Assembly: GCA_002898855.1 (NCBI GenBank)
Contig: BEIR01000008.1
Coordinates: 1 to 15,540 of the forward strand
DNA length: 15,540 nt
Reading direction: 5' to 3'
DNA from: a bacterium HR41
GTDB taxonomy: Bacteria; Actinomycetota; Thermoleophilia; Solirubrobacterales; Thermoleophilaceae
Shown here: piece after piece, positions 498-2,630 of the stretch
How the letters are laid out: each line of letters opens with the position of its first letter
How positions within the stretch are numbered: position 1 is the stretch's first letter
Program-made: the position numbers and the translations under genes
The notes under the pieces: model-generated
Seen by the model: only the letters and a program-made list of their open reading frames with translations
Told to the model about the DNA's origin: nothing
Databases searched by the model: none

Positions 498-2630
<2,133 letters not shown>

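Follow-up and report, generated by a model that had tools for sequence, protein, structure and literature searches.

The window, a stretch of 15,540 bases, is the entire contig C8 of a fragmented draft assembly (285 contigs, 1,610,524 bases, 72.17% completeness, 1.2% contamination). Nearly all of it is collinear, in two blocks, with the DNA of a same-genus relative (G001) at 80–83% identity, and it carries neither an Rfam match at the gathering score nor a tRNA. Named records close to it include a Solirubrobacterales assembly at 71% and Thermoleophilaceae assemblies at about 80%, in a listing that may omit very near records, and the organism probably belongs to the Thermoleophilia. Positions 498–2630 of the plus strand hold the gene for elongation factor G (fusA), which matches the EF-G model TIGR00484, is 94% identical to the same-genus protein, and is interrupted once. 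Its frame runs from an ATG at 498 to a TAA at 2628–2630 and comprises 710 codons. Re-reading the sequence confirmed the claim of an earlier note on this DNA that an in-frame TAA occupies positions 1521–1523, codon 342 of this frame. Directly downstream lies an intact gene for EF-Tu (2708–3892, plus strand), the usual neighbour of fusA, which scores 765 bits against TIGR00485 (cut-off 522) and whose product is 98.5% identical to that of G001.

The stop divides fusA within the region encoding domain II. The upstream open frame (498–1523, plus strand) encodes 341 amino acids, which include the GTPase domain (residues 9–286 by Pfam) and the start of domain II. In an intact homolog, P0001, domain II spans residues 334–402, so the upstream piece stops short of completing it. 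The continuation of the frame (1524–2630, plus strand) encodes 368 amino acids, which make up domains III to V and what remains of domain II, and the first start codon listed after the stop is a TTG at 1554. Given what the individual EF-G domains are known to do, a product of 341 amino acids would presumably be unable to support translocation. No frameshift or indel was found; as the earlier note held, the frame is undisturbed on both sides, and the EF-G of G001 aligns without gaps over 709 codons at 94% identity.

Apart from the stop, the gene has the features of canonical EF-G (EFG I, TIGR00484). Positions 1–689 of the 691 in the model are matched in one frame running through the stop, with a single TAA flagged, and the score of 1131.4 bits lies above the cut-off of 659.4 and close to the 1136.3 bits of intact P0001. 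Taken singly, the two pieces score 531.3 and 579.8 bits, both below the cut-off. The RGITI G2 motif of P0001 is found at the same place in the frame of the window, and the EF-Tu gene follows directly 3' as it does for canonical EF-G. In contrast to EFG I proteins, which are encoded by a single uninterrupted frame, the gene in the window carries one in-frame TAA at codon 342 that near-identical proteins lack.

Five such proteins, P0001 to P0005, each of 710 amino acids, are 99–100% identical to the EF-G of the window. P0001 agrees with it at all 709 of the other residues and has tyrosine at position 342, as do P0002–P0005 and the 94% identical P0006. The FRVYSG context around this tyrosine is shared by the solved EF-G structure 2xex, which we take to be from S. 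aureus. P0001 was counted on six contigs, the longest of 1,387,747 bases, and the longest contigs for P0002–P0005 range from 32,302 to 2,112,804 bases; all those given for the five proteins differ in length from the window. Among the best 120 matches listed for the upstream piece there is no identical 341 amino acid protein, although one would rank first. Residue 342 is likewise tyrosine at all 29 relative loci checked, drawn from 40 relatives searched and including G001. The stop thus looks private to contig C8 within the set of near-identical and related EF-Gs that we examined.

The two parts of fusA show no sign of relaxed selection. Compared with G001 by the Nei-Gojobori method, dN/dS is 0.071 for codons 1–341 and 0.035 for codons 343–710, with dS of 0.66–0.68 for both parts. 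Constraint after the stop is at least equal to that before it. Purifying selection on both sides of the TAA argues against an old pseudogene, and with no indel in 709 codons we rejected a decayed one; on these substitution patterns, fusA worked until very recently or works still. The earlier note proposed that a change from TAC to TAA accounts for the stop. A single change does lead from a tyrosine codon to TAA, but TAC is not established as the starting point, because TAT would serve equally well and is the codon that G001 uses here. The other tyrosine codons of fusA in the window are TAC in 14 cases and TAT in one.

To place a lone stop of this kind in context, we surveyed the phylum, in which 344 of 396 genomes match EF-G at E <= 1e-250, and examined the best 150 rows. 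Seven are flagged for a stop: the window, G257, and one family (G051, G066, G189, G241, and G271) whose stops proved on inspection to be the end of the gene. Internal stops are therefore present in two of the 150 rows, that is, in one of the 149 other than the window. In G257 (L216; about 160 contigs, two EF-G matches counted) an isolated in-frame TGA occupies codon 174 of a high-scoring EF-G. We also observed, on the minus strand in G009 (L218), a gene for a translation GTPase, by eye lepA, with an isolated in-frame TAG inside the GTPase domain. These two cases indicate that an isolated stop in a gene of this type, though uncommon, does turn up in draft genomes.

Within the assembly itself, a search for interrupted genes by codon usage lacked sensitivity: it missed even the fusA stop, and its candidates, left uninspected, numbered 4 across 511,184 bases from the assembly against 6 across 400,000 bases from the G001 control. 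It was replaced by alignment to G001. This alignment covers 18,859 codons in 71 segments, seven of which have a stop on the side of this assembly. The only clear mid-gene stop is that of fusA. In three segments (L149, L156, and L159) the stop precedes the likely start, L140 appears to be non-coding, and the stop in the rpsC segment is by its coordinates the end of rplV; in L130, flagged but not inspected, the stop falls close to where the alignment ends. None of the queries had its match divided between two retained segments. In the reverse direction, 6 of 70 segments were flagged for a stop in G001; these flags are uninspected, and four of the six lie on the strand opposite the genes of the window. 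In the window, 22 other frames were compared with G001, a set that is without rpsZ and adk, and all but the rplV frame match over all or most of their length; since the frames were picked as open, they necessarily lack internal stops. The rplV frame matches only at residues 102–203 of 203. Its first approximately 100 residues (window 7011–7312), rich in glutamate and alanine, are unmatched in G001, whereas residues 102–203 match at 93%. A single clear mid-gene stop in 18,859 codons is in keeping with a low error rate and offers no separate indication that the consensus is poor.

The best reading of the TAA at codon 342, to which we give a probability of roughly 0.85, is that it would be a single-base consensus error, from sequencing, DNA damage, or assembly, in one contig of a fragmented assembly. 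The organism itself would then most likely carry an ordinary intact fusA with tyrosine at position 342. This reading draws on P0001, which is identical elsewhere, on the shared tyrosine of P0002–P0005 and the 29 relative loci, on the low dN/dS on both sides, and on the lack of a 341 amino acid twin among the best 120 matches listed. It is also consistent with the incompleteness and fragmentation of the assembly and with the isolated stops in G257 and G009. However, the assembly is not visibly error-riddled, with fusA the sole clear mid-gene stop in 71 segments, and the intact proteins may stem from other strains and so do not prove the base wrong. The stop resembles the isolated wrong bases of draft and metagenome assemblies in being one private, substitution-like change in a constrained gene, as in G257. 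We infer an origin of this base in the data rather than in a cell. Oxidative damage, which can produce G>T artefacts (PMC12390751), is one possible cause. On the wider consequence, text in PMC7111523 notes that uncurated metagenome assemblies introduce incorrect protein-coding sequences into public databases.

Ranking second is a rare, non-viable variant: a real nonsense mutation, carried by part of the population or by a dead-end lineage, that was taken as the consensus where few reads covered the site. Intact near-identical proteins on other contigs favour either an error or such a variant, and in this they bear out two of the options raised by the earlier note, a sequencing or assembly error and a strain variant. 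Closely related variants do exist, because P0001–P0005 differ at a few residues, and the second EF-G described below differs from its full-length relative P0243 at 11 of 374. However, constraint is strong on both sides of the stop and no truncation is found among the near-identical proteins listed. We regard a rare variant as improbable, at odds of about one in nine.

The earlier note also raised a second functional fusA elsewhere in the genome. Another EF-G does exist in the assembly, but it is a fragment of a divergent paralogue at the end of a contig (L011, contig C47, positions 2–1126), where a frame of 374 amino acids, open at the very start of the contig, scores 411.8 bits. An EF-G profile search of the assembly found no intact second fusA, the remaining matches being partial and lower-scoring. 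The fragment is 51% identical to the EF-G of the window over the comparable part and 87% identical to the corresponding paralogue in G001, where the flanks also match, and over its 374 amino acids it is 97% identical to P0243, a full-length protein. The RGITI motif of P0001 is missing from P0243; the fragment stops short of that part. The absence of RGITI is given as a feature of the EFG II subfamily by Margus et al. 2011 (PMC3150367). In lacking it P0243 fits that subfamily, and the second EF-G of this lineage is divergent; the putative EFG II-type gene of contig C47 is a separate gene from the interrupted fusA.

Among the 40 relatives, 27 have a near-full-length EF-G scoring 641–731 bits. 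In 24 of those 27 a canonical EF-G, complete or fragmented, is listed too and scores higher; presence was judged by this score band, and orthology with the C47 gene is confirmed for G001 only. As 24 of 40 relatives carry both genes by score, the existence of the divergent paralogue is not enough to account for the stop. On these comparisons the second EF-G belongs to the normal gene set of the lineage, and the stop is not needed to account for it. Three relatives (G003, G005, and G018) list a full-length EF-G of the divergent band only; they are drafts of 76, 72, and 81% completeness, and the absence of a canonical EF-G there probably reflects gaps.

That the stop is real and fixed, with the EFG II-type protein having taken over, is therefore very unlikely. 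The paralogue is in the assembly, and G003, G005, and G018 list a divergent EF-G without a higher-scoring canonical one. However, those three are incomplete drafts, and the joint presence of both genes by score in 24 of 40 relatives makes the second gene no special replacement here. The paralogue is also only 51% identical to fusA, its full-length relative lacks RGITI, and the near-identical P0001–P0005 are intact.

Codon reassignment, or a suppressor tRNA, is unsupported. TAA terminates fusA and three further frames, which the earlier note named rplV, rpsZ, and adk. The Rfam tRNA model matches at 25 places across the assembly, and the anticodons that ARAGORN assigns to these 25 tRNAs include none that reads a stop, although this is no proof in an assembly that is 72% complete and may lack a tRNA gene. 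The tRNA-Tyr (gta) is ordinary, and no stop-reading tRNA was found by ARAGORN among 12 tRNA genes on 42 sampled contigs. Within what was tested, with TAA ending four frames and no stop-reading tRNA in 25, the dismissal of reassignment by the earlier note holds. Readthrough or recoding of the stop, or expression in two pieces by reinitiation at the TTG at 1554, has in its favour that the frame continues and is conserved past the stop, but it is scarcely credible given the use of TAA as a terminator, the tRNA complement, the tyrosine at position 342 in 29 relative loci and P0001–P0006, and, for a split protein, a cut that falls within domain II rather than between domains. The base after the TAA is T, as the earlier note stated, a context in which TAA is regarded as terminating efficiently. 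Taken together, a fixed real stop, in which the EFG II-type paralogue or reinitiation would sustain translation with a broken or split canonical EF-G, has hardly any probability.

The interruption is thus most likely a one-letter data error and not a new biological feature. When a draft environmental genome shows a lone stop in an essential gene, near-identical intact copies should be sought first. If the stop were real and fixed, the organism would be a bacterium that lives with no intact canonical EF-G, a highly surprising outcome.
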